From: Deltaproteobacteria bacterium
Lineage (GTDB): Bacteria > Myxococcota_A > UBA9160 > UBA4427
Direction of reading: 5' to 3'
NCBI GenBank assembly: GCA_019310385.1
Contig: JAFDEK010000002.1
Location: 1 to 64,000, forward strand
Length of the DNA: 64,000 nucleotides
The number at the start of each line of letters is the position of its first letter. Positions within the stretch are counted from its first letter, which is position 1. The position numbers and the translations under genes are program-made. The notes beneath the pieces are model-generated. The model was not told where the DNA came from. It worked only from the letters and a program-made list of their open reading frames with translations, and did not search any database. Shown here piece after piece: positions 468 through 15,866 of the stretch.

Positions 468-799
468 GTCACTCTCCGTTGCTGGCCAGACCATCGGCCT
501 CGGTCGACACCGAGGGAAACCGGTCACGGGCTCGCTGCGGGTCTCGCCTCCGTGCGGATCCCGCGCCCCGTTCGGTCTGGCTTGGGGGTCATCTTTGGTG
601 ACGCGGCAGAGTAGCACGCAACACGCCTTGCAGCCTCCCGGGGGATGAGCGCGCAGGGGCTCCCGGGCGCCCGCGGCCCCAATCGGGCGCGATCCTTGAA
701 ATCGGGGCCGATTGGGAGACACTGGAGCAGGCGGTGGGCCTATCGCGATTGCTGACCCGGAGTCGCGTCAGGCCGTGCCGGAATGAACGGGAGAGAGCC
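468..799. other. Divergent intergenic region between thiolase and HIT genes
   Basis: 332 bases separate the divergent thiolase and HIT genes. No convincing gene is visible; open frames here lack a ribosome site and family features. The region must hold promoters for both genes and contains the inverted repeat listed at 675-716. No clear -35/-10 pair was recognised. Confidence 0.6.
675..716. promoter_or_regulatory. Inverted repeat upstream of the HIT gene, possible operator or hairpin
   Basis: CCCAATCGG at 678-686 is matched by its reverse complement CCGATTGGG at 708-716. GGCCCC at 675-680 also pairs with GGGGCC at 704-709. The arms are exact. The centre is 84 nt before the GTG of the HIT gene. 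Function as operator or mRNA hairpin is inference; no T-tract follows, so it is not a normal terminator. Confidence 0.3.
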
Positions 800-1222
800 G
801 TGGCATCGATATTCACGAAGATCATCAACGGCGAGCTACCTGGGCGCTTTGTCTGGAAGGACTCGAGCTGTGTCGCTTTCATGACCGTCGCGCCCCTCAA
901 GCCAGGCCACGTGCTCGTGGTCCCGCGCGAGGAGGTGGATCACTGGATCGACCTCGAGCCCGATCTCGTCCAGCACCTCGCCTTGGTGGCCCAGACCGTC
1001 AGCAAGGCGATCCAGTCGGGCTTCCAGCCCATGCGCGTGGGCCTCATGGTCGCCGGCATCGAGGTGCCCCACGTCCACCTCCACCTGGTGCCCATCTCCG
1101 CCGTCCACGACCTCGACTTCTCCAACGCGGACAACGACGCCAGCGCGGAGGCCCTCGACGCCGCCGCGGAGACCGTGCGCCGGGAGCTGCGCGCCATGGG
1201 GTGTGCGGAGGTCAGCGACTGA
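800..1222 (+). CDS. HIT-family nucleotide hydrolase/transferase
   Basis: 140 residues with the histidine-triad motif HVHLHLVP near the C-terminus, preceded by a typical HIT core (GHVLVVPREEVDHW). HIT proteins hydrolyse or transfer nucleotides from AMP-linked or dinucleoside substrates; the middle histidine of the triad is the nucleophile. I chose the GTG at 800 because GAGAG lies just before it and ASIFTKIINGELP is the conserved HIT N-terminus; the frame opens at 734 without support. Length matches the small HINT/HIT class. The exact substrate is not predictable. It is a single gene, convergent with the SDR that follows. Confidence 0.9.
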   Translation: MASIFTKIINGELPGRFVWKDSSCVAFMTVAPLKPGHVLVVPREEVDHWIDLEPDLVQHLALVAQTVSKAIQSGFQPMRVGLMVAGIEVPHVHLHLVPISAVHDLDFSNADNDASAEALDAAAETVRRELRAMGCAEVSD

Positions 1223-2414: not shown

Positions 2415-3185
2415 CTAGCGCCCGATCACGAAGCCGCTCTCCACCGGGAGCACCGTGCCCGTCACCAGGTCCGAGCCGGTGACGAGGCTCGTGATGGCGG
2501 TCGCGACCTCGTCGGGGGTGCAGGTGCGACCCAGGGGCGTCAGGGCCTGGAAGCCTCGCCTCAGTGCTTCGTAGCGCTCGTCGCCCAGGCCCTCGCGCAG
2601 CCAGGGGCCCTCGATGAAGCCCGGCGCCACGCCGTTGACGCGAATGTTGCTCGGGCCGAGGGCCCGGGCGAGGGTGACGGTGAGATTATTGAGCGCGCCC
2701 TTGGAGGCGCAGTAGGGGATCGAGCTGCCGCGTCCGACCAGGCCCGCGATGCTCGAGGTCATCACGATCTCGCCCCCGCCCGCCGCCTCGAGGGCCGGGC
2801 GAGCCGCGCGCGAGCAGTAGAAGGGCCCCTTGAGGTTCACCGCGAAGATCCGGTCCCAGTCCGGATCCTCCACGGCCTCGAGGTCGCCGTGGTCGACGAA
2901 GACGGTGGTGCCGGCGTTGTTGATCAGGATGTCGAGGCGGCCGAATTCCTTTGCCGCCGTGTCCACCATGGCGCGGCAGGCGGCGTCGTCGGAGACATCG
3001 GCCCGGTGGGCCACGGCCTTCACGCCCTCGGCGCGACAGCTCTCGGCGACTTCTTCGGCGGGCGGCTGGGAGCGGCTGTAGTTGACGAGCACCGCGCAGC
3101 CGAGCTGCGCGAGGCGGCGCGCGGTGGCGGCACCGACGCCCGAGCTGCCGCCGGTCACGATGGCGGCCTTACCTGCGACGTCCAC
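2415..3185 (-). CDS. SDR-family oxidoreductase, 3-oxoacyl-ACP-reductase-like
   Basis: 256 residues. TGGSSGVG cofactor loop at residues 12-19, INNAG, and catalytic S...YCASK. The ending VLPVESGFVIGR is typical of FabG-like SDRs. It probably reduces or oxidises a keto/hydroxy group with NAD(P)H; neighbouring thiolase and SDR genes suggest acyl-CoA or steroid-type substrates, but this is not proven. The start at MDVAGKAAIVTGG is the only one compatible with the Rossmann fold. Confidence 0.9.
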   Translation of the reverse strand: MDVAGKAAIVTGGSSGVGAATARRLAQLGCAVLVNYSRSQPPAEEVAESCRAEGVKAVAHRADVSDDAACRAMVDTAAKEFGRLDILINNAGTTVFVDHGDLEAVEDPDWDRIFAVNLKGPFYCSRAARPALEAAGGGEIVMTSSIAGLVGRGSSIPYCASKGALNNLTVTLARALGPSNIRVNGVAPGFIEGPWLREGLGDERYEALRRGFQALTPLGRTCTPDEVATAITSLVTGSDLVTGTVLPVESGFVIGR

Positions 3186-3304: not shown

Positions 3305-4276
3305 TCAGCGCCGCAGGAGCACGCGCCAGATCACCGGCCAGCCGAAGATCAGGGGATGACGCCGCTGGCGTTCGCTCACTTCGACCGCCTCCCCCGTGTG
3401 GCGTTCGAACTTCCAGAGCGCGTAGGGGACCCAGTCGCCGAAGGTGAAGGCCGTCTTCAGCAGGCGCAGCACGGCGAGACCGCGGGCCACCGGGCGAGAG
3501 AAGCGCCAGCGCCAGCGGGTCCAGAGCCGTCGGGAGGGGCGCAGCTCCACCTCGAAGGCGCTGCCGCGGGCGACCACCGACTCGAACCATCCCTCTTCGT
3601 CGAGCAGCACCAGGGCGCTGGCTCCGGCGGCATCGTAACGTTCGCTGCGCGCCTGGTAGATGCTGCGGATGGTGTCGCTGCTCTCGGGCCGCTTCTCGGC
3701 GCCGTAGGTGCGGCGGAAGGCCTCCTGCCAGAGCGCTGCGATGGAGAACTTCTGGATCGCGCCCCGTGCCGGGAGGAAGACGCCCAGGCGCTGGATCAAG
3801 GTCTTCACCGCCTGGGCCGCACAGGCAATCACGCGCTGTCGGCTCTCTTCGTCGCGGACGTAGACGAGGATGGAGGGCTGGGCGAAGCGCGCCCAGATGT
3901 AGGGGTGGACGCAGTCCGGTCCGACGCCGTGCTCGAAGTCCTCCAGGGAGATCACGGCGTACTTGGTGCGCAGGGTGCCGAGCTGGGTCTCCGCCTCGAG
4001 GTAGAAGACGTTGGGGGGCAGCAGGCCGTTGGCCCAGGCGATCGGCCGCGAGCTGTAGAAGGCCTGGTAGTCGTCGACCAGCAGGTAGAAGTCGAGCACG
4101 CCCTCGTGGGTGCTCTTGCGCAGACAGGAGCCGTAGAAGAGCACTCCCGCGATGGTCTCATTGCGGTCGTGGCGCTCGAGGATGGCATTGGTGAGCGCGC
4201 GCGCGGCAGGCGGCGCGGCGACGCCGAGCTCGTCCGCCACCTGGTGAGCGAGGGGTGATGCGAGAGCGGTCGACAC
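3305..4276 (-). CDS. Tam41-like cytidylyltransferase, candidate CDP-diacylglycerol synthase
   Basis: 323 residues. The pattern follows mitochondrial Tam41/TAMM41: a nucleotidyltransferase core LFYGSCLRK (residues 46-54, YGS loop), LDFYLLV (61-67, acidic metal ligand), TKYAVISLEDF (104-114) and an arm with PYIWARFAQPSILVYV (125-140). Tam41 condenses CTP and phosphatidic acid to CDP-diacylglycerol and is unrelated to integral membrane CdsA. No long membrane segment is visible except a hydrophobic C-terminal end with many Arg/Trp, which could touch the membrane. It sits 4 nt after a lipid kinase gene that could supply phosphatidic acid and two genes from a CDP-alcohol phosphatidyltransferase that would use the product. 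The family call rests on motif memory, not a search. Confidence 0.7.
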   Translation of the reverse strand: MSTALASPLAHQVADELGVAAPPAARALTNAILERHDRNETIAGVLFYGSCLRKSTHEGVLDFYLLVDDYQAFYSSRPIAWANGLLPPNVFYLEAETQLGTLRTKYAVISLEDFEHGVGPDCVHPYIWARFAQPSILVYVRDEESRQRVIACAAQAVKTLIQRLGVFLPARGAIQKFSIAALWQEAFRRTYGAEKRPESSDTIRSIYQARSERYDAAGASALVLLDEEGWFESVVARGSAFEVELRPSRRLWTRWRWRFSRPVARGLAVLRLLKTAFTFGDWVPYALWKFERHTGEAVEVSERQRRHPLIFGWPVIWRVLLRR

Positions 4277-4280
4277 GGTT

Positions 4281-5249
4281 TCAGGTGCGGACGAAGCGCA
4301 CCGTCCGGTCTGCCGTCAGCTCGACCACCCGGCCCGGCTCCGGATCGAAGAGCTCGCCGTCGACGGTGAAGCCGCAGTCCAGACGCATCTGGACCCGATC
4401 GAGGTTGCGACTCGTGTAGCCGTTGTCGTCGGTCACGAAGTCGAGAGGCCGGCCCCGCAGGATCCCCGGGAAGGAGCGCGCCAGCCGGTTGGAGTTGGAC
4501 GCGATGGAGGTGAAGTGCACGCCGCCGGGACCCACGCCCCAGAAGGGACGCATGCGGGCAAAGAGGCGCGAGAGCGTGCTCGCGATCGTGAGATAGAACT
4601 CGCTGTCGGCCATGGGCTCGCCGTCCAGCAGCACCTGCACCTTGTCGGGCAGCAGGATGCCGTCGTTCTCCCCCATGGCGAGGCGGCCGAGCAGGCCTCC
4701 CGTCACCATGGTGGCGCCCACCACCCCCTGGGCGTGGCGCGCCGCGCCCTCGGTGAACATGCGATGGTTGAGCTCGATGGCCCGGTGGATCAAGCCCAGA
4801 CCGAAGAACATCCCGTACTCGACGTTGCGCTGGAGCCCGTGCTGGACTCGCAGCACCCGCCGGCTGACGACGCGCTTGCTCACGTCCCCGGCGTGGACGT
4901 CGGCGAGCAGCTCGCCGAGCCCCTTCACGGGGTCGCGCCGGCAGCCGATGTCGAGGGCGTTCATATTGGTCCGACCGCCGCGCAGGGGCGCGATCATGGG
5001 AACGCGTTCGCCGAAGACACCGTTGTGGAGGATCTCGGTGAGGGCGGTCTGCAGGGTTCCGTCGCCGCCGTTGACCACCAGGATGTCGACCTCCTGGCGG
5101 GCCAGCTCCGAGAGGGCCTCGGGGACCACGTGTGCGGATCCGGTCTCGACGTGGAGCACGTCGGGGTGCCGCCGCAAGAATCCGAGTAGGCGGTTGACCT
5201 GGGCGTCGTTCTTCCCTGCACGGAGGTTGTTCAGAAGTCCGATTCGCAC
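4281..5249 (-). CDS. Diacylglycerol-kinase-catalytic-domain lipid kinase (YegS/DgkB/LCB5-like)
   Basis: 322 residues. VVNGGDGTLQTAL (residues 58-70) is the nucleotide-binding GGDGT motif of the DAGK/sphingosine kinase superfamily, with a later APLRGGRTNMNA substrate loop and a C-terminal beta-sandwich ending in ELTADRTVRFVRT. Such enzymes phosphorylate diacylglycerol or a related lipid at the membrane face. The next gene downstream (4 nt) is a Tam41-like cytidylyltransferase, so a phosphatidate-like product feeding into CDP-lipid is plausible. The loop is GGRTNM where many relatives have GTGNDFA, so the lipid may not be plain DAG. Confidence 0.8.
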   Translation of the reverse strand: MRIGLLNNLRAGKNDAQVNRLLGFLRRHPDVLHVETGSAHVVPEALSELARQEVDILVVNGGDGTLQTALTEILHNGVFGERVPMIAPLRGGRTNMNALDIGCRRDPVKGLGELLADVHAGDVSKRVVSRRVLRVQHGLQRNVEYGMFFGLGLIHRAIELNHRMFTEGAARHAQGVVGATMVTGGLLGRLAMGENDGILLPDKVQVLLDGEPMADSEFYLTIASTLSRLFARMRPFWGVGPGGVHFTSIASNSNRLARSFPGILRGRPLDFVTDDNGYTSRNLDRVQMRLDCGFTVDGELFDPEPGRVVELTADRTVRFVRT

Positions 5250-5446: not shown

Positions 5447-6709
5447 TCACCGGCGTGTCAGAGCGTTCGTGAAGTTGATTGCCGCCACGCCACGGTTCTG
5501 GAATTGGAGGGGGAGTGGTCCAGAACCGGGCTTTAGCGTAACTGTAATTTTCGCCATGGACCACACCCTGCGGGGGCTCGACTTTCTCCCTGCGAGGAAG
5601 CGAAGGGGCTGGGGGAGATCGCTCAGGGGGTCGCGCTCCACGAGGGCCTCGGTGAGCGTCGCCTTCCCCATGACCGCGTCTCCGCGCAGTCCCAGATGGC
5701 CCGGAATCCAGTAGTCCTCGTGTCTACGCTTCCTACCATTCTTTCCTGGGGGGAAGAGATCTCCGCCCAAGTCGATGTCGAAGCGGGTTTCAGAAATCAA
5801 CCGGTCGTCTTGCCCGGGGCCTCGCGTCTCGTCCAGCGCGCGAAGCCAACGCGAGCGCTTTCCGGAAGGAGCTGTGAAATCAACCACATAGAGCGCTGTA
5901 CCGGTCTCTCGTGGCGACTGCTGTGACGACTGCCGCAAGGAGCGTTGCGAAAACAACTCGATTCGGCGCTGCACTAGCTTGGTCTCGGAGTTGCGCACCA
6001 CCGTGTGTACGGCGGCAGTTCGTCCCTGCAGCTTGAGCCCGTTGGACATGCCCTCGAGCCAGATGGTTCCCTCGGTGGGCGAGGCCAACGCCAGGAGATC
6101 CAGACCATACCCCTCGGGGGCAACTCCCGCCGGAATCACCATCCCGGCGCGTGGCGCGAAGGAGATATCGATCTTGACATAGCTCTTGGTGACTTCGAGG
6201 CGGTAGCGCGGTCCGTGGAGATCGAGGTGGGACTTACCGATGTCCAGCCGCAGGCGATCGCGCGAGAGTGTCCAACGGGATTTCTGACGCCCGTTGCGGA
6301 AATGCGTGCTCTCCCCCTCGGGATCGATCAGCTCCCCTGTGGCGAAGCCCAGCTGGTCCCCAGGGCCCTCGTTGGTGATGGCGAAGCGGACGAAGAGGTG
6401 GTGTCCCGAGTCGAACTCGCTGGTGAGGTCCCAGTATTCGACCGCCGATCCGCCCTTGGGCAGGCGGGCTGCCGGGTCCGGCGCCTCGACTCGGGGAGGC
6501 GTCTCGTTCGGATGCGGGTCCGCGGGCGCGCCGACCACTGCGGCGGCCGGGCGAGTCGCCAGCTCGGCGGCGTAGTCGGCGTCGGGGATTCCGTCGGCGT
6601 GGCCGGCGTGGGCTCCCCAGACGAGGGCCAGTGCGAGTAGGAGAAGCGGTCGGCCGTGGCTCCTGCAGTGTTTGCGGGCAGCGCGCGGCGCGGATCCGCC
6701 GAAGCTCAC
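5447..6709 (-). CDS. Secreted lipocalin-like protein, possibly CrtC/AttH-related
   Basis: 420 residues from a GTG at 6709 that overlaps the stop of the upstream phosphatidyltransferase (GTGA). The frame stays open back to 7363, but that part is a shadow of the upstream gene. A signal peptide (RPLLLLALALVWGAHAGHAD) begins about 20 residues in. The body has paired beta-strand patterns such as HHLFVRFAITN, FRNGRQKSRWTL and ISFAPRAGMVIP, resembling the double-lipocalin fold of hydroxyneurosporene synthase/AttH proteins that bind lipids or isoprenoids. That family call is tentative. Coupling to a lipid-synthesis enzyme suggests handling of a lipid in the periplasm. An alternative is a carbohydrate-binding beta-sandwich. 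Confidence 0.65.
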   Translation of the reverse strand: MSFGGSAPRAARKHCRSHGRPLLLLALALVWGAHAGHADGIPDADYAAELATRPAAAVVGAPADPHPNETPPRVEAPDPAARLPKGGSAVEYWDLTSEFDSGHHLFVRFAITNEGPGDQLGFATGELIDPEGESTHFRNGRQKSRWTLSRDRLRLDIGKSHLDLHGPRYRLEVTKSYVKIDISFAPRAGMVIPAGVAPEGYGLDLLALASPTEGTIWLEGMSNGLKLQGRTAAVHTVVRNSETKLVQRRIELFSQRSLRQSSQQSPRETGTALYVVDFTAPSGKRSRWLRALDETRGPGQDDRLISETRFDIDLGGDLFPPGKNGRKRRHEDYWIPGHLGLRGDAVMGKATLTEALVERDPLSDLPQPLRFLAGRKSSPRRVWSMAKITVTLKPGSGPLPLQFQNRGVAAINFTNALTRR

Positions 6710-7932
6710 GCTTCGCTGCTCCCCGTCTCTACCGCCTGCTCTTCGTGCCACGGCCGAATGGGATTGCCCCGGCGCCGCTCGGCGAAGGCCTGGGCGATGC
6801 GCACCATGGGGACCACGTTGCAGATCACGGTCCAGACCGCGACCGCGATGTAGCCGGCATCGGGGCGCCCGAGGGCGACTCCCATGCTGAGCAGGACCAG
6901 GTTGGGATTGCGGCGCGCGATGATGGTGCGGAAGAAGCCGTCGAAGGGGCGCCAGGTGAAGATCTCGTGCTTGAAGGCGGCGAGGAAGATCCCTTCGAGC
7001 AGGCGTCCCAGCACGTAGCCGCCGACGATGATCCACATGGCGAGCTCGTAGCCCTGCATGCCTGGGGCGAGCCCGTAGGCCCACGCGGCCCACCAGATCG
7101 GCGGGTGCACGAGGTCGAGGCCGTGGTCCAGGGCGCCGCCGATCTTGCTGGAGGTCAGCGTGCAGCGGGCGAGCTTGCCGTCGACGGTGTCGAGGAAGGT
7201 CATGAGCCACGCCGCCGCCAGGCCGATCCCGAACCATCCCTCGGCGAAGAACCACGTGGCCAGCGCGGTGAGGACGTAGCTCAGGGCGGTGACGCTGTTC
7301 GGCTTGACGCCGCGCGCTGCGAGGCGCCGGGTCACCGCCCGCGCGGGCAGGGGCCAGGCCCACTTGGTGACGAAGTCGGTGATGCCCTTGTAGGAGGCGG
7401 CGAAGATGCGGTTCTCGCTCTCACGGATGTCTTCGTGGCGCGCGCGGTAGATGAAAGGTGGGTCGTGTTTGCGCAGGGCGGCGTTGTAGGCGGGCGCGAG
7501 GCCGAGCCGATCGACGATGCGCAGGTCCCGCCCGCTGGCCTCGATCACCGGGCTTCGCTCGCCTCGCAGAATCGCGACCGCGTTGCCGAGCTCTTCGGCC
7601 GGTATGTGGGCAGCAAGGGCGACTGCCGTCTCGTCGCCGGGCGCGCGATCGATCAGCAACGAGCCCGGCTGCTGCAGCAGGCCGGCGATCAGCCGCTCGT
7701 CGTAGAAGTGATCACCGCGTACGACGACCCAGGCCTCCTGGGATTCGGCCCGAATCTGCTCGCCCGAGCCGATGCACTCGACTCGCGCTGCGCCAGCGCG
7801 GGTCAAGCCCCGCCGCAATCGTTCCTCGGCGCTAAGTCCCCAGACCAGCGCCGGCTCTACTCCCTCCCCGTCGTCGCGCAGGACGAGGGCGGAGGGTGCA
7901 CGCGAGGGTCCGTTGGAACTCGAGCTCGCCAT
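6706..7932 (-). CDS. CDP-alcohol phosphatidyltransferase with N-terminal nucleotidyltransferase-like domain
   Basis: 408 residues. The full CDP-OH signature D-x2-DG-x2-AR-x8-G-x3-D-x3-D is present at residues 248-273 (D248, D251, G252, A255, R256, G265, D269, D273), followed by several membrane helices. It should transfer a phosphoalcohol from a CDP-linked donor to an acceptor alcohol. Residues 1-180 look like a nucleotidyltransferase fold (VVVRGDHFYDERLI at about 69-82) lacking the G-x-G-x-R loop, reminiscent of the fused IPCT-DIPPS enzymes of inositol-phosphate lipid and solute synthesis. It is the first gene of the leftward lipid operon. Head group is unknown; inositol is one possibility. 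Confidence 0.85.
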   Translation of the reverse strand: MASSSSNGPSRAPSALVLRDDGEGVEPALVWGLSAEERLRRGLTRAGAARVECIGSGEQIRAESQEAWVVVRGDHFYDERLIAGLLQQPGSLLIDRAPGDETAVALAAHIPAEELGNAVAILRGERSPVIEASGRDLRIVDRLGLAPAYNAALRKHDPPFIYRARHEDIRESENRIFAASYKGITDFVTKWAWPLPARAVTRRLAARGVKPNSVTALSYVLTALATWFFAEGWFGIGLAAAWLMTFLDTVDGKLARCTLTSSKIGGALDHGLDLVHPPIWWAAWAYGLAPGMQGYELAMWIIVGGYVLGRLLEGIFLAAFKHEIFTWRPFDGFFRTIIARRNPNLVLLSMGVALGRPDAGYIAVAVWTVICNVVPMVRIAQAFAERRRGNPIRPWHEEQAVETGSSEA

Positions 7933-8078: not shown

Positions 8079-9044
8079 TTGTACACTCTCGCCCACGTCT
8101 CCGATTGGCACACCACGCCCCTGGCGGGCCTCGACCCCACGGCGCTCCTGAGCAAGCGCTTCTTCGGCTGGCTCTCCTGGAATGTCCGGCGCGGCAAGAC
8201 CCACCGGCCGGAGGTGCTGCGGGCCCTCTTCCGTGATCTGCAGGGCGAGAGGCCCGATCACGTGGCCATGACGGGCGACCTCACCAACATCGCGCTCGAG
8301 CAGGAGTGCCAGCTGGCGGCCCGGCAGCTCCGCGAGCTCGGCGGGCCGGATTGGATCTCGCTCATCCCAGGCAACCACGACGCCTACGTGCGGGTTCCGG
8401 TCGCTCGCACGTGGAAGCTCTGGGCGGACTACATCCGCTCCGATCCCGGCGAGGGGGATCCCGCGGAGGCGGCCGGGGAGGACTTCCTCGCTGCGGGCAC
8501 GGCCTGCGAGGAGGCGGCGCCCTTCCCCTGCGTGCGCATTCGCGGGGAGCTGGCGTTGCTGGGCGTATGCACGGCGCGTCCCACTCCGCTCTTCATGGCG
8601 ACGGGCCGGGTGGGCGACGCGCAGCTGCGCCGCCTGGAGGCCCAGCTCGTGGCGCTGGGCGAGCGAGGACTCTGTCGCGTGGTACTCGTGCACCACCCGG
8701 TGGTGGACCATCACGTTTCGCCGCGCCGCCGGCTCAGCGATTCCGCGGCGCTGCGCGAGGTGCTCGAGCGAGCCGGCGCCGAGCTCGTGCTGCACGGACA
8801 CCACCATAGGACGATGTTGGAGCACCTCGCCGGTCCAGAGGGTCCGATTCCCGTCGTTGGTGTTCGATCCTCCTCGGACGTCGGGGAGAAGGAGCACAAG
8901 CGCGCCCAATACAACATCTACTCCATCGAGCGCGAATCGGGGGGGGACCCCGCGAGCAAGGGGCGCTTCCGTATCGAGGTGCAGGTGCGCGGCTGGGATC
9001 CGGAGCACGAACGCTTCGTCGCCGAAGGGCGATCGACCCTCTAG
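8079..9044 (+). CDS. Metallophosphoesterase (calcineurin-like)
   Basis: 321 residues with the ordered metal-ligand motifs of the family: DxH (SDWH, D9/H11), GDxxN (residues 66-70), GNHD (98-101), VHHPVVDHH and GHHH near 245. It is predicted to cleave a phosphomonoester or diester with two metal ions in the cytoplasm; no signal peptide is seen. I chose the TTG at 8079 because AAGGA lies 5 nt upstream and translation then begins YTLAHVSDWHT, the first strand of the fold. It is divergent from the CDP-alcohol transferase gene and may process a phosphorylated intermediate of the same lipid pathway. Confidence 0.85.
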   Translation: MYTLAHVSDWHTTPLAGLDPTALLSKRFFGWLSWNVRRGKTHRPEVLRALFRDLQGERPDHVAMTGDLTNIALEQECQLAARQLRELGGPDWISLIPGNHDAYVRVPVARTWKLWADYIRSDPGEGDPAEAAGEDFLAAGTACEEAAPFPCVRIRGELALLGVCTARPTPLFMATGRVGDAQLRRLEAQLVALGERGLCRVVLVHHPVVDHHVSPRRRLSDSAALREVLERAGAELVLHGHHHRTMLEHLAGPEGPIPVVGVRSSSDVGEKEHKRAQYNIYSIERESGGDPASKGRFRIEVQVRGWDPEHERFVAEGRSTL

Positions 9045-9051
9045 CAGGCTG

Positions 9052-9915
9052 CTAGGCCCGCCCGGCGAGAATGCGGTTGACCAGCTCGAGATCACTGAGC
9101 TTGTCGACGTCGACGGCGGCCTCCGCCATGGGCATCGTCACGGCATGCAGCCGCACGCCGATGACCCGGGAAGCCCTGCGAAAGGCGGCTCGCAGGTCCA
9201 GCCGGCGAGCGAGGAAGAGCAGCAGGGTGAGTGGGCCGAAGGCGCTCACCATGCGCCAGGGCTGCTTGCGGAAGTGCTCGGCCTTCTGCCAGAACTCCAC
9301 CGCTCGGACGGCGTCGGGCGTCAGCAGGGCAAAGAGGTTGGCGCCGCTGTAGCGCTCCCCGCGAAAGGGCAGATAGGTGCGCTTGGCCTCGGGGAAGCGG
9401 GCCTGGATCACGCTCGCCGGCACGAGGGCAATGGCGAGGTCCGCGTCGCTCTCCTCGGCCTCGCCGAGGAAGTGGCTGAGCATCGCCTCGTCGAGGAGCG
9501 CGTGGTCGGCGGTCGTGACGAGAAGCGGTGCCTCGTCCCCGATGGTCTTGATGGCGTCGATGGCGGCGAGCACGCTGCGGCTGGGCGAGTCGGCGGGCGG
9601 CACCAGGCGCACCAGACCCTCGCGCAGCATGGCCGCGATGGTGGGGATCTCTTCGAGCAGCTCCGGGGCGTCGATGCTCAGGAAGATCGAGGCGACGCGT
9701 TCGCTGTGGCCCAGGGTCTCGAGCACCCGTTGCAGCATGGGCGTGCCTGCCACGTCGAGCAGGGCGCGATGCGGCGCGCCGGCCGCTTCGGCGAGCGGGT
9801 CTCCGCTACCGCGGCGGCCGGCCAGTACGAGCACCGTGAAACGCCGGGCCCTCCGATCTGCCGGGCCCATGCTGGCTCGACTCATACCTGCTCGACCCAT
9901 ACCGGTTCGACCCAT
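9052..9915 (-). CDS. MobA-like nucleotidyltransferase
   Basis: Up to 287 residues. VLVLAGRRGSGDPLAEAAG is a variant of the nucleotide-binding loop of MobA/IspD-like NTP transferases, followed by LLDVAGTPMLQRVLETL and VTTADHALLDEAML, where D is the metal-binding acidic position. It probably transfers a nucleotide (CTP or similar) to a phosphorylated alcohol or sugar. The start is ambiguous: the first 15 residues come from a 15-bp tandem repeat in which each unit supplies an ATG, and the last ATG (9870, MGPADRRAR) is also possible. Ends 7 nt from the convergent phosphoesterase. Expected partner: the CDP-alcohol phosphatidyltransferase. Confidence 0.8.
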   Translation of the reverse strand: MGRTGMGRAGMSRASMGPADRRARRFTVLVLAGRRGSGDPLAEAAGAPHRALLDVAGTPMLQRVLETLGHSERVASIFLSIDAPELLEEIPTIAAMLREGLVRLVPPADSPSRSVLAAIDAIKTIGDEAPLLVTTADHALLDEAMLSHFLGEAEESDADLAIALVPASVIQARFPEAKRTYLPFRGERYSGANLFALLTPDAVRAVEFWQKAEHFRKQPWRMVSAFGPLTLLLFLARRLDLRAAFRRASRVIGVRLHAVTMPMAEAAVDVDKLSDLELVNRILAGRA

Positions 9916-9933: not shown

Positions 9934-10710
9934 CTAGGCGACCGCGAGACTCGGCTGCTGGGGCGCACGCTCGATGCGCTTTGCGAGGGAGGCTCTCACT
10001 TCGGCGAGGTCTTCGGGAGAATCGACCTCCCCCCACCACAGACCGGTGATCGTCGTGGTCTCGACGGGATGGCTCTGCGCGATGGTGTTGATCACCTGGA
10101 GGTACCAGGCCTTCAGTCCCTCGGGCGTGCGCATGGCCGCGTCCAGGGTGTCGCGGAAGATCTGCACGCCCTCGCCGCGGAAGAGCAGCATCCCGATGGA
10201 CTCGCCGTTCACGATCTCGGCGTCGAGGGTCTTGCCTATCGCGAGCAGGCGCCGACTTCCGTCGATGGAGACCTTCATGTCGTCGTCGTCGTAGCCGTGC
10301 TTCTCATTGATGGTGACCGTGATCGGCGCGACGGGCGAAGCGAGCAGGCGCCTCAGCGCCGCCTCTTCGAAGAGGGTGTCGCCGTTGAGCACGATGAAGT
10401 CTTCGCTCACGCTCCGGGTCGCGAGCCAGATCGTGGCGAGATTGTCCGCCACCTCGTAGAAGGGGTTGAACAGCGTCTCCACGACGAGGCCGGGGATTCC
10501 GTGGTCCGCGATGTAGTCCTCGACCTTGTCGGCCCGGAAGCCCACCACGACGGTGACCTGCTCCACGCCGCAGGCCGCCAGGGCGCGCAGCTGAACCTCG
10601 AGCAGGGCGCGGCCGTCCACGACGGGCAGCAGGCACTTGGGCATGTCTTCGGTCAAAGGGAGGAGACGGCGTCCCTGTCCGGCGCTCACGATGATGGCTT
10701 TGACGGGCAT
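9934..10710 (-). CDS. Sugar-phosphate/alditol-phosphate nucleotidyltransferase (cytidylyltransferase-like)
   Basis: 258 residues. AIIVSAGQGRRLLPLTEDMPKC (first 25 residues) is the NTP-binding G-x-G-x-R-L...P-K signature; VLNGDTLFEE carries the metal-binding D. The sequence resembles LicC/IPCT-type cytidylyltransferases that make CDP-choline or CDP-inositol, consistent with a CDP-alcohol phosphatidyltransferase nearby. GGAGG lies 5 nt before the ATG. It precedes the MobA-like gene in the same direction (18 nt gap), so the two may form an operon. The base preference (CTP versus another NTP) cannot be read from sequence alone. Confidence 0.85.
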   Translation of the reverse strand: MPVKAIIVSAGQGRRLLPLTEDMPKCLLPVVDGRALLEVQLRALAACGVEQVTVVVGFRADKVEDYIADHGIPGLVVETLFNPFYEVADNLATIWLATRSVSEDFIVLNGDTLFEEAALRRLLASPVAPITVTINEKHGYDDDDMKVSIDGSRRLLAIGKTLDAEIVNGESIGMLLFRGEGVQIFRDTLDAAMRTPEGLKAWYLQVINTIAQSHPVETTTITGLWWGEVDSPEDLAEVRASLAKRIERAPQQPSLAVA

Positions 10711-11787: not shown

Positions 11788-12237
11788 CTGACTTCCTCCG
11801 ACAGGGGGTCGTCTCCCCGCTCTAGATAGCAGCACCGGCCCCACTCCTCTACGTCTCATTCGACGCGGCATTCACAGCAGCAACAGGCCGGACAGCGTGA
11901 ACATGTGGGCGTGATCGACGACCGGATCGCGCCGTCGGTTCCCCTTTTCCCATTAGTTCAGCAAAAACGGGCATCTCCACAATGCGCAGGTACGTGTCCA
12001 AAATGCCCCAATTTGCGAGAATAAAGTGATTTCTCACCCGGATCACGATCGACATCTTCGGATATCGGCCGCTGGTGCGTGTAGCTGTAAGGAAGTTGCC
12101 GCTATGGGACTGGAATCCCGGTCGACTTACCCGAGGGATTCGAGAGAGGGGGTCGATGTAGCACGTTCTGCACCCTGGAGGGTGATTCGGGGTAGCATGG
12201 CGGCCGAGCGACGGTGCTCCCAGGGGAGGCATTCGGG
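11788..12237. other. Divergent, comparatively AT-rich intergenic region
   Basis: 450 bases between divergent kdsA and the ELM1-family gene. The stretch 11935-12080 is clearly richer in A/T than the rest of the window (for example AATTTGCGAGAATAAAGTG), as expected for promoters. A leftward frame of 127 codons spans it but has no start support or familiar motif. I could not fix a -35/-10 pair with confidence. Confidence 0.5.
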
Positions 12238-13461
12238 GTGAGCCAGGGCGTCGATCCCGACGGTGAGGCGGATGCGGGATCCATGCGGGCCTCGCCGTCG
12301 CAGGGCTCCCCTGGCGCCGATTCTGGTGGAGCTTCGCCGCTGCCCCGGGTCTGGGTGCTGGCTGACGACCGGCCCGGCAACACCACCCAGTCGGTCGGCC
12401 TCGCCGAGAGCCTCGCCTGGCCTTACGAGATCAAGCAGCTCCGCTGCCGGCTCTTCGCCGGTCTCCACAACCGGCTGCTCAGGGCTTCGCTGCGCGGCAT
12501 CCACCGCGGCGGCTCGAGCCCCCTCGAGCCACCCTGGCCGGCTCTGGTCATCGCCGCGGGGCGCCGCACCGCGCCGGTTGCCCTGTGGATCCGCGAGCAG
12601 AGTGGGGGGCGCACCCGGCTGGTCGAGCTGGGGCGCAAGGGCGGCGACGCCGCCGAGCTCTTCGATCTCAGTGTGATTCCCGAGTACGGGCGGCTCCTTC
12701 CGCATCCCAACCGCATCGTGACCCGCGCTCCTCTCACGCGCATCACGCCCGAGCTGCTCGAGGCTGCGTCGGAGCAGTGGCGCGACACCCTGGTGGAAGC
12801 CGGGGCGGCGCCGCGTATCGCCTTTCTCGTCGGAGGCAGCTCGGGTCAGTACTGGCTCGGAGCCGAAGGGGCGCGCCGGATGGGAGAGGAGGTCGCCGAG
12901 ATGGCCCGACGAGCAGGCGGCTCGCTCTTCGTCACGACGAGCCGTCGCACCGGCGAGGCCGCGACCCGAGCCCTGCAGACTGGACTGGGTCCGGTCGCCT
13001 GTTTCTATGCCTGGCGGCCCGACGCCGATGCCGCGGGCAACCCGTACCGCGGGTATCTCGCTCTTGCGGATGCCTTCGTGATCACCGGCGACAGCGAGTC
13101 GATCCTCGCCGAGGCCTGCTCGACGGGCAGCCCGGTGTATGTCTATCCCCTGCCGGTGCGCCCGAGCTTTCGCGTACTGCGCTTCTTTCGGGAGTCCGTC
13201 GTGCGCCTGGCCCAGGCGGGAACCGGGAGCTACCGCGATGCTCCCCAGCGCAAGGGCCTCGAGGCCTTCTGCGCCTGGCTGATCTCTCGCGGCTTCGTGC
13301 GGCCGACCCGGGATCTCGACCTGCTCCACGACTCGCTGGTCGAGGAGGGCGTGTTGCAGCGCTTCGGTGCCCCCTACGCGCCCAGCGATCGGGGGCCCCT
13401 GTGCGAGGTCGAGCAGGTGGCCGACCGCGTACGGGGCTTGATGTCGGCGACAGGGACCTGA
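12238..13461 (+). CDS. ELM1/GtrOC1-family putative glycosyltransferase
   Basis: 407 residues from GTG at 12238, preceded by GGGGAGG; the frame is open from 12214. After a low-complexity lead, VLADDRPGNTTQSVGLAE and later FLVGGSSGQYW, TSRRTGEAA, YLALADAFVITGDSESILAEA and GSPVYVYPLP match the mitochondrial-fission ELM1 family, a GT-B-like fold. Bacterial members are regarded as putative glycosyltransferases in envelope polysaccharide synthesis; the TGDS-x-SE motif resembles a sugar-nucleotide site. Location between kdsA and LptF-LptG supports a role in LPS core assembly. Biochemical function of the family is not settled, so the product name is provisional. Confidence 0.8.
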   Translation: MSQGVDPDGEADAGSMRASPSQGSPGADSGGASPLPRVWVLADDRPGNTTQSVGLAESLAWPYEIKQLRCRLFAGLHNRLLRASLRGIHRGGSSPLEPPWPALVIAAGRRTAPVALWIREQSGGRTRLVELGRKGGDAAELFDLSVIPEYGRLLPHPNRIVTRAPLTRITPELLEAASEQWRDTLVEAGAAPRIAFLVGGSSGQYWLGAEGARRMGEEVAEMARRAGGSLFVTTSRRTGEAATRALQTGLGPVACFYAWRPDADAAGNPYRGYLALADAFVITGDSESILAEACSTGSPVYVYPLPVRPSFRVLRFFRESVVRLAQAGTGSYRDAPQRKGLEAFCAWLISRGFVRPTRDLDLLHDSLVEEGVLQRFGAPYAPSDRGPLCEVEQVADRVRGLMSATGT

Positions 13462-13482: not shown

Positions 13483-15762
13483 TCACTCCTTCGTGCGGCG
13501 TCCCAGGCGGGAGAGGGGCTGTCCGCGCGCGCGCAGGTGCAAGCCGAGGTACGCCGCCAGGGCGGCAAGGACCAGGACGGGCCCCCAGCCGGCGAGCAGC
13601 GGATTCAAGGCGCCCCCGTAGCCCAACGACGCGCCGGTCCCGCTGAGCAGGACCCATCCCACACCGAGCACGATGCTGAGCAGCAGCGTGGTCGCCGACG
13701 CGGGAAAGGGCGGGCCTCCGACCGCGAAGAAGAGGATGATGGCGGGAAGCACGATGCACGCGAGAGGCGTCGCGAGCTTCACCTGCAGGTCGACGCGCAG
13801 AGCCGTGGCATCCAGGCCGTTGCTCTCGATGTCGGCGATCTCCTTGCGCAGCTCCATCACGCTCAGGTGCATGGTGTCCACCTTGGCCGGCAGCGTCGTG
13901 CCCAGTCGCGCGAAGCGAGGCGCCTCTACCACGCGGAAGGCCTCGTTCTTCCACTCGATGCGCGTGGGCTCGCGCAGCCGCCAGTTGCCCCGTCCGAAGT
14001 GGCGCGCCGACTCGGCGTCCGTACGGCTGACGGGCAGGCCGTCCTCGCCCATCTCGAAGAAGGTGATTCCCTCGGCGCTGCCGCCCTCGCTGTCCAGATG
14101 GTCCACCTGGTTGATGCGCCCGGCCACGCGGTACCAGATGGGGGCGGCCTCCTGTCCAAGCCGCGATGCGGCCCAGATCTGCTCGCGCTTGACGTGGTCC
14201 TGCCTGGCGCTTGCTCGGGGCACCAGCTCGTTGTTGAGCATGAAGAAGGCGGGCACGATCAGGCTGCAGATCACGAGCACCGGAAGCAGGGCCTTGGGGG
14301 CGGGAATCCCGCACGCCCGCATGCCAATCAGCTCGCCCTGCACCGCCAGGTGGCTGGCGGTCAGGGCCGTTGCGACGAGCAGCGACATGGGAATGACCCG
14401 GGAGGCGAGGACCGGGAGACGCGCCGCGTAGAAGTTCACGATTGCGAGTGCCGAGGCCTCGTATCGGGCGAACCACTGCAGCCGATCCAGAATGTCGATG
14501 AGCAGGTAGGCCGAGAGGAGCGCCGCAAAGGCGAGCAGGGCGAACTGGAGAAAGCGCCCCGCCACGTAGCGCGGCAAGGGAAAACGACGCGGTCCGCGCT
14601 TCGTCGAGCGGGGCGTGCGCTCGCGTTTGCCGCCGCCGCGCTGCCGGTCGAATTCACGTCCGAAGACACCGCGACGGGCGATCGAGGAGAAGAGCCAGGC
14701 GGCCAGCACGGCGACCAGGGCGTTGGGCAACCAGACGCCGGCCTGGGCGGAGAGCCTGCCGTTCTGGATCAGACCGTTGCCGAGCTGCACCGTGCCGAAG
14801 TAGGCGATGAGCACGCCGAGGCCGAGAATGCCGCCGGCGGATCGCGAGTACTCCTTGCGCGAGAGGAAGAGGGGCACGGCGAGCAGGCCGAACAAGAGAG
14901 TCGTCACCGGCAGGGAGATGCGACGGTGCAGCTCGATGAGCGCCTCCGGGTAGGAGACCTCCAGCTCGGCCTCCTCCTGGGCGAGCGCGCGCAGCTCGGG
15001 GAGGCTGGCGCCCTTGCGGATCTCCTCCTTGCTGCGCGTCACGGGACGGTTGCTCTCGGGCAGCATGGTGGTCATGGTCGCGAACCCGATCTGCTGCTTT
15101 TTCTCGTCGGGAGAGAAGAGAATGCGACCCTCCTCGAGGGTCACGCGTATGGAGCCGTCCTCGCCGGTTTCGAGCAGCCCGGATCGGGCGAAGATCGTCT
15201 CGCCGAGGGAGGGCACCCAGAGGAGCACGTTCTTCATGCGGTCTCCGCGCGCGGAGACCTCCCGTGCCTGGATCTGCCAGTCGCCGAATTCGTGGATGAT
15301 GCCCGCGCGAATCTGGGCACCGGGGTTCTCCTTCGACATCTCTTCCAGGGCGCGGTCGAGGGAGTGGCTCGCCCAGGGTGACGCCATCGCGGACAGGCCC
15401 AGGGCGACGAGGGTCATGGCCAGCGCGAAAGCGCCAAAGGGACCGGCGAGACGGGTGGCCGGGATGCCGAGGGTCTCGAGGACGAGGATCTCGAGATCGG
15501 CCCCCATCCGCCCCATGGCAAAGAGCGCTCCCATCAGAACGGCGAGGGGGAAGATCATGGTGAGCAGCGGAACGACCTGGTAGAAGGCGATGAGCGCCAC
15601 CGCGTCCGCACCGAATCCGCGGTTGATGACCAGGTCGGAATAGCCGAGCAGATCCTTGGCGAGGACCACCGCGGTGAGCCCGAGCAGGGAGAGCAGGGTG
15701 GGGCTGATGAGCTCTCGCGCGACGTAGCCGTAGAGGATTCTGCCGGGGCGGCGATGCTTCAC
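13483..15762 (-). CDS. LptF-LptG fusion, LPS export permease
   Basis: 759 residues, about twice the usual 360-390 of LptF or LptG. Two complete YjgP/YjgQ permease units follow each other: unit one starts LYGYVARELISPTLL, has VLMGALFAMGRMGADLEILVLE, a beta-jellyroll region and C-terminal helices to about residue 385; an Arg/Lys-rich linker (GGGKRERTPRSTKRGPRR) leads to unit two starting PRYVAGRFLQFALL, with ASHLAVQGELIGMRACG and a C-terminal helix set. LptFG forms the inner-membrane channel that LptB2 uses to extract LPS. GTG at 15762 has AGAGGAG upstream. A single chain replacing the heterodimer is unusual; no frameshift or stop interrupts it. Confidence 0.9.
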   Translation of the reverse strand: MKHRRPGRILYGYVARELISPTLLSLLGLTAVVLAKDLLGYSDLVINRGFGADAVALIAFYQVVPLLTMIFPLAVLMGALFAMGRMGADLEILVLETLGIPATRLAGPFGAFALAMTLVALGLSAMASPWASHSLDRALEEMSKENPGAQIRAGIIHEFGDWQIQAREVSARGDRMKNVLLWVPSLGETIFARSGLLETGEDGSIRVTLEEGRILFSPDEKKQQIGFATMTTMLPESNRPVTRSKEEIRKGASLPELRALAQEEAELEVSYPEALIELHRRISLPVTTLLFGLLAVPLFLSRKEYSRSAGGILGLGVLIAYFGTVQLGNGLIQNGRLSAQAGVWLPNALVAVLAAWLFSSIARRGVFGREFDRQRGGGKRERTPRSTKRGPRRFPLPRYVAGRFLQFALLAFAALLSAYLLIDILDRLQWFARYEASALAIVNFYAARLPVLASRVIPMSLLVATALTASHLAVQGELIGMRACGIPAPKALLPVLVICSLIVPAFFMLNNELVPRASARQDHVKREQIWAASRLGQEAAPIWYRVAGRINQVDHLDSEGGSAEGITFFEMGEDGLPVSRTDAESARHFGRGNWRLREPTRIEWKNEAFRVVEAPRFARLGTTLPAKVDTMHLSVMELRKEIADIESNGLDATALRVDLQVKLATPLACIVLPAIILFFAVGGPPFPASATTLLLSIVLGVGWVLLSGTGASLGYGGALNPLLAGWGPVLVLAALAAYLGLHLRARGQPLSRLGRRTKE

Positions 15763-15866
15763 GGCGACTCCTCTGGGCTGGTGGACCACGAAAAACGCCG
15801 AGAGCGTAGGCCGCAACCCGGCGCGGAGCCAACATCACGCGCCGGGAGGATCCCTGGGTCCGGCTC

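Follow-up and report, generated by a model that had tools for sequence, protein, structure and literature searches.

A Tam41-fold nucleotidyltransferase family of Myxococcota as a probable CpgC-type enzyme of phosphosphingolipid gene clusters

What is the role, in a bacterium of the Myxococcota_A lineage, of a protein that carries the motifs of mitochondrial Tam41 and is encoded directly beside a lipid kinase? The window, by which we mean the whole stretch of 64,000 nucleotides analysed here, begins at base 1 of its contig, and the gene in question lies near that end. The initial annotation had taken its product for a bacterial Tam41-type CDP-diacylglycerol (CDP-DAG) synthase next to a DAG kinase. 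We suggest, with a probability of about 0.62, that it is a CpgC-type CTP:ceramide-1-phosphate cytidylyltransferase, which would yield CDP-ceramide in the pathway of a phosphosphingolipid similar to ceramide-phosphoglycerate (CPG). The proposed activity and substrate are our reading of a computed fold, conserved residues, a gene cluster and an association with serine palmitoyltransferase (SPT). The features of the window that the argument needs are the following.

734..1222, forward strand: HIT-family protein (PF01230, E 2.7e-18).
3305..4276, reverse strand: Tam41-fold nucleotidyltransferase, probably CpgC-type, 323 aa with a GTG start; the main finding.
4281..5249, reverse strand: lipid kinase with a DAGK_cat domain (PF00781, E 3.3e-8; GGDG at residue 61), CpgB/ceramide-kinase-like.
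5447..6655 (start approximate), reverse strand: AttH/CrtC-like tandem lipocalin, exported-looking (AF2 pLDDT 83.8; VIA Z 25.1 to AttH, 2ich).
6706..7932, reverse strand: CDP-alcohol phosphatidyltransferase, CpgA-like (PF01066, E 5.5e-9; 46% identity to the copy of the R. marmotae cluster).
8079..9044, forward strand, facing away: metallophosphoesterase in the place of CC_1158 (PF00149, E 7.1e-12).
9052..9915, reverse strand: first MobA-like nucleotidyltransferase (PF12804, E 2.9e-12; 2dpw, E 1.9e-17).
9934..10710, reverse strand: second MobA-like nucleotidyltransferase, candidate CpgD, a CTP:phosphoglycerate cytidylyltransferase (PF12804, E 3.7e-12; 4jd0, E 9.3e-11).
12214..13461, forward strand: ELM1-like protein (PF06258, E 6.1e-62), which recurs in the related clusters L103 and L106.
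13483..15816, reverse strand: fused LptF-LptG permease of 777 aa, a candidate for lipid export (above the cut-offs of both TIGR04407 and TIGR04408).

The reading frame at 3305..4276 is a real gene and belongs to a conserved family. Its GC content by codon position is coding-like (0.68, 0.49 and 0.90), and the motifs quoted in the initial annotation are all present in the protein, namely YGS at residues 48-50, LDF at 61-63, KYAVIS at 105-110 and, at 129-140, ARFAQPSILVYV, which fits AxFAQPxxLVYV. A family match was found in 32 of 60 related genomes, the own genome counted, and phylum-wide in 29 of 282 genomes, all of them labelled as the own genome, the same family or the same order. The named relatives are chiefly Myxococcota assemblies. 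A remote family member found in an assembly of the Gemmatimonadales led to a search of the Gemmatimonadota, where 41 of 200 genomes had a match, 31 of these full-length; among 72,556 plasmid records the family occurs in 17 (13 Roseomonas, 2 Pseudomonas, 1 Diaphorobacter and 1 Qipengyuania). Regarding the alignments, the first one (A1) has 31 rows, the duplicate loci L002-L005 being excluded because their contigs are identical to L009, L010, L013 and L027, and the second one (A2) has 24 rows, that is, 18 of the 31 rows of A1 plus six plasmid rows.

The protein is not a member of the Pfam family Tam41_Mmp37 (PF09139). The profile search proposed in the initial annotation was negative up to E 10 for two sets of family members (0/31 and 0/24), and the protein itself had no Pfam or NCBIfam match up to E 1. 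Tam41 was likewise missed when PDB sequences were searched with the profiles of A1 and A2 (best E 0.38 and 0.43). PF09139 also had no match in 377 Myxococcota genomes, but the control genomes gave none, so this absence is not proven. When the family profile was aligned to the two solved Tam41 sequences with hhalign, a colinear alignment of 171 columns was obtained (19% identity, score 29.1, E 0.0023), and none of 300 column-shuffled controls equalled its score, the shuffle maximum being 24.1. Thus, the order and spacing of the motifs do follow Tam41, as had been claimed. The hhalign probability was 12.5-13.6%, and for this reason the sequence alone is weak support for kinship with Tam41. A Firmicutes Tam41 used as query had no match in the plasmid collection; in the viral collection it gave one short match, at 3001-3126 of an IMG/VR contig (L108), which comprises 43 Tam41-like residues with 44% identity at a place without an ORF of 100 aa.

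The comparison of folds was strong. An AlphaFold (AF2) model of the protein built from 31 sequences reached a pLDDT of 93.1 and a pTM of 0.91. In the Foldseek search with this model the best rows were aminoglycoside nucleotidyltransferases (E 1e-4, TM about 0.25), and Tam41 was absent among the best 50, which consisted of aminoglycoside and other nucleotidyltransferases; therefore a realignment was needed, and the 998 best Foldseek chains were realigned with VIA-align. The top three were then all Tam41, specifically, 7ecd (Z 18.4, rmsd 3.2, 230 residues), 6ig4 (Z 16.5) and 6ig2 (Z 16.2). These matches cover 219-230 residues and extend over model residues 5-279, exceeding the nucleotidyltransferase core, whereas the next fold reached Z 8.7 over 114 residues. 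The predicted model therefore has the two-domain fold of Tam41, and the label 'Tam41-like' holds for the fold and the active-site pattern but not for Pfam membership. We regard the protein as a predicted peripheral nucleotidyltransferase, made of a nucleotidyltransferase domain and a second domain, and its C-terminal basic helices probably anchor it at the membrane.

Thirteen residues of the aligned region are invariant in the 24 family rows, and eight of them (Y48, G49, S50, D62, K105, R130, Y191 and R196) are identical in both Tam41 sequences. The motif YGS and the sole catalytic Asp are thus found in 24 of 24 rows and in both Tam41. According to PMC11646218, of the three acidic residues typical of this fold Tam41 retains a single one, and D62 aligns with it. 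The initial annotation would have given up Tam41 on a low match together with missing Mg-binding residues; the profile match is indeed absent, but the one acidic residue that Tam41 keeps has its invariant counterpart. Three further invariant residues differ from both Tam41, namely Q133 opposite K, E194 opposite D and P88 opposite T. The motif GRFQKP, which is how both solved Tam41 sequences read, is replaced by ARFAQP, with Q133 in place of the Lys in all 24 rows, and the segment from D62 to K105 is shorter than its Tam41 counterpart. Because of this glutamine and the short segment, even the use of CTP by the family is something that we infer.

The same differences, the general divergence from Tam41 and the first place of aminoglycoside nucleotidyltransferases in Foldseek would suit a cluster nucleotidyltransferase that uses a different donor (ATP or UTP) or a different acceptor (the phosphate of a sphingoid base, a headgroup or even CPG). 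We consider this unlikely, as the VIA Z for Tam41 is double that of any other fold and covers two domains, and deletion of CC_1161, the Caulobacter gene for CpgC, is reported in PMC11324152 to halt CPG formation just past the kinase step. A cytidylyltransferase with a substrate unlike that of Tam41, probably ceramide-1-phosphate, remains the reading that we prefer.

Upstream of the Tam41-like gene the order on the reverse strand is kinase, lipocalin-like protein and CDP-alcohol phosphatidyltransferase, and the stop codon of the kinase lies 4 nt ahead of the GTG start. The kinase shares 32% and 31% identity with the kinases of two plasmid sphingolipid clusters, and a comparison with one YegS-type kinase from Gemmatimonadota reported no match. 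The lipocalin-like protein has a signal-peptide-like start and no Pfam match, and its model is as close to fungal pericyclases (VIA Z 25) as to AttH; it is possibly a periplasmic lipid binder or carrier, or a lipid-modifying enzyme. Regarding the second MobA-like protein, its match 4jd0 is the top structural hit reported for CpgD in PMC12275187. Genes for HIT-family proteins also occur in L102, L105, L106 and L107, and such a recurring protein might serve the hydrolysis or salvage of a nucleotide intermediate. A DAHP synthase gene also lies among the further neighbours of the cluster in the window. The LptF and LptG parts are fused in the window and are separate genes in the plasmid clusters.

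The neighbourhood is conserved. We compared 20 Myxococcota fragments from the 31 other genomes with a match (ends at up to 20 kb; tblastn E 1e-4), and the kinase was adjacent in 19 of them, with the phosphoesterase found in 18, the first nucleotidyltransferase and the lipocalin-like protein in 17 each and the CDP-alcohol transferase in 10. SPT was on the same fragment as the family gene in two of the 20. Six of the 17 plasmid records with the family were examined as loci; a CpgB-type kinase was adjacent in five and 2 kb away in the sixth. The window holds the CDP-alcohol transferase, the phosphoesterase, the MobA-type nucleotidyltransferases and LptF/LptG, which are the partners by which we recognise a CpgC-type locus. 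A second, divergent clade of CDP-alcohol phosphatidyltransferases is found in L087, L096, L100 and L105 (38-45% identity to the L105 copy), and its members are candidates for a CDP-ceramide-using enzyme.

The link to sphingolipids is clearest on plasmids. The R. marmotae cluster runs from the phosphoesterase through the CDP-alcohol transferase, the kinase, the family gene and SPT to ACP, which repeats the order from CC_1158 through spt (CC_1162) given for Caulobacter in PMC11324152; the plasmid clusters and the region of Caulobacter both contain LptF/LptG genes. An SPT-like gene is found in 16 of the 17 plasmid records with the family, compared with 29 such records overall, a count to which many near-identical R. 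mucosa records contribute. The two plasmid SPT neighbours that were scanned scored 639 and 618 bits, above the NCBIfam equivalog cut-off of 500. CPG-like clusters were also seen on pPNP1 of Pseudomonas sp. JS425 (L103) and on the IncP plasmid pDCB2 of Diaphorobacter (L105), the latter typed as conjugative, near integron or mercury resistance genes.

In the genome of the window the likely SPT, judged by sequence, is encoded on another contig (L072); it scores 479 bits to the solved SPTs 8guh and 3a2b and lies under the NCBIfam SPT equivalog cut-off (580.5 against 640). Among the 60 relatives, strong SPT orthologs accompanied the family in 27 of its 32 genomes and occurred in 15 of the 28 that lack it (Fisher p 0.012, kinship ignored), where strong means at least 540 bits, a cut chosen after the gap in the scores was visible. 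Outside the own family the figures were 10 of 15 with the Tam41-like gene and 2 of 15 without. Five of the 32 family-bearing genomes had no strong SPT ortholog, and 15 genomes had SPT without the family. The CerS-like protein, for which we used as query an R. marmotae protein that is putatively CerS from its cluster position and a GNAT match, was found in 12 of the 60 relatives, 11 of the 32 with the family and 1 of the 28 without it (p 0.003, kinship ignored); it had no match in the genome of the window, which is 88% complete.

The Caulobacter genes give these associations a pathway. PMC11324152 describes there a phosphoesterase (CC_1158), a CDP-alcohol enzyme (CC_1159), the ceramide kinase CpgB (CC_1160) and CpgC (CC_1161), with spt (CC_1162) and further ceramide genes, the nucleotidyltransferases CC_1152 and CC_1153 and LptF2/LptG2 in the same region. 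The window carries this set minus the ceramide genes, and a headgroup cluster for a phosphosphingolipid, similar to CC_1158-CC_1161 (cpgA, cpgB and cpgC), describes it better than a 'DAG kinase operon'. According to the same source, CC_1161 is required for CPG and CPG2, and its deletion stops the formation of CPG itself, that is, the first headgroup step, directly after the ceramide kinase; CC_1159 is described as dispensable for CPG. The kinase step and the formation of CDP-glycerate by CpgD have been established biochemically in Caulobacter, and the need for CC_1161 genetically, as far as these papers report. The probable orthology of our gene with CC_1161 is based on gene order, by way of the Roseomonas plasmids.

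On this basis the following route can be proposed. After the lipid (ceramide) kinase has acted as step 1, the 3305..4276 enzyme would move CMP from CTP onto ceramide-1-phosphate in step 2, giving CDP-ceramide and pyrophosphate. A CDP-alcohol phosphatidyltransferase would then swap CMP for glycerate or a related alcohol (step 3), and the MobA-type nucleotidyltransferases would provide CDP-glycerate for extension, with trimming by the phosphoesterase (step 4). LptF-LptG may export the resulting outer-membrane lipid, perhaps helped by the lipocalin-like protein.

The CDP-DAG synthase of the initial annotation, with the kinase making phosphatidic acid (PA) and the 3305..4276 enzyme turning it into CDP-DAG on a second, soluble route beside CdsA, appears improbable. 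It would agree with the Tam41 fold of the model, with the CDP-DAG formation by bacterial Tam41 (Kimura 2022, as described in PMC11646218) and with the phosphorylation of DAG by purified CpgB in vitro (PMC10331486). Against it stand the missing PF09139 match, the ordinary CdsA present in the genome of the window, a kinase that resembles those of sphingolipid clusters and a cluster and plasmid linkage that match the Caulobacter CPG genes and indicate sphingolipid synthesis; moreover, PMC10331486 reports that the cpgB deletion left PA unchanged in Caulobacter. That mitochondria obtained their Tam41 pathway from this family, as the initial annotation suggested, is hardly credible, because mitochondrial Tam41 and the family have fold and motifs in common and nothing else, no profile-level relation to PF09139 exists, the genomic context differs and the already published bacterial Tam41 of Firmicutes (crystal structure 7ecd; Kimura 2022 in PMC11646218) is far nearer to fungal Tam41, with 42% identity against 19% of the aligned columns for our family.

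Gemmatimonadota loci probably serve a different lipid pathway. We examined the neighbourhoods in 20 of the 31 genomes with a full-length match and scanned the gene content with Pfam in L134, L144 and L146, where the family copies adjoin a PlsC-like acyltransferase, an acetoacetate-decarboxylase (ADC)-like protein, a YegS-type kinase and a CDP-alcohol transferase in varying sets. Because of this acyltransferase, YegS-type kinase and CDP-alcohol transferase context, the lipid there may differ. An SPT/BioF-like enzyme, present in L144 and L146, lies about 2 kb from the family gene in 6 of the 20 fragments and is 39-45% identical to the SPT of the window genome; the two that were scanned fell below the SPT cut-offs.

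PMC11324152 (2024) noted in CC_1161 an InterPro domain hinting at a CDP-DAG synthase and already proposed an NDP-activated ceramide, and Tam41 is not mentioned in the three CPG papers covered; for this reason what is new here is limited to assigning the fold, identifying the conserved residues and extending the reading to Myxococcota and Gemmatimonadota. Among the papers searched, none treats CDP-ceramide, bacteria and sphingolipid jointly. The mechanism of CpgC, the step from ceramide-1-phosphate to ceramide-phosphoglycerate, is termed 'unidentified' in papers from 2025-2026 (PMC12275187, PMC13228409), and the lipid is reported to let Caulobacter survive without LPS. Recognition of the Tam41 fold makes this step directly testable and supplies conserved residues as targets for mutation, the family can serve to flag phosphosphingolipid clusters in Myxococcota, whose copies of the gene escape the Pfam models, and the attractive interpretation as a CDP-DAG synthase of the mitochondrial kind is corrected. 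We give about even odds to the more general view that a distinct Tam41-fold family makes CDP-ceramide and that bacteria assemble phosphosphingolipids by a route in which a CDP-lipid is combined with a CDP-alcohol transferase. If true, CDP-ceramide synthesis would fill the CpgC step, the range of the route would grow beyond Proteobacteria to include Myxococcota and Gemmatimonadota, and two lipid classes would be served by the Tam41 fold.

Compared with known systems, the Tam41/TAMM41 CDP-DAG synthases (6ig2, 6ig4, 7ecd; PF09139) have in common with the 3305..4276 protein the fold over 219-230 residues, YGS, the single Asp, the K of KYxVxS, the R of xRFxxP and YxxD/ExR; the family differs from them in that it has no profile match, the stretch from Asp to KY is shorter, Q replaces the K of GRFQKP, E replaces the D of YxGDxR and the gene context is another one. 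The ANT(4') aminoglycoside nucleotidyltransferases share the nucleotidyltransferase core (Z 8.7, 114 residues), but the match stops there and their gene context is unrelated. CpgC of Caulobacter (CC_1161, CCNA_01219) adjoins spt and other ceramide genes, which the window genome has elsewhere and not in the cluster; like the 3305..4276 gene, it lies beside a CpgB-type kinase and has the same cluster partners, namely the CDP-alcohol transferase, the phosphoesterase, the nucleotidyltransferases and LptF/LptG.
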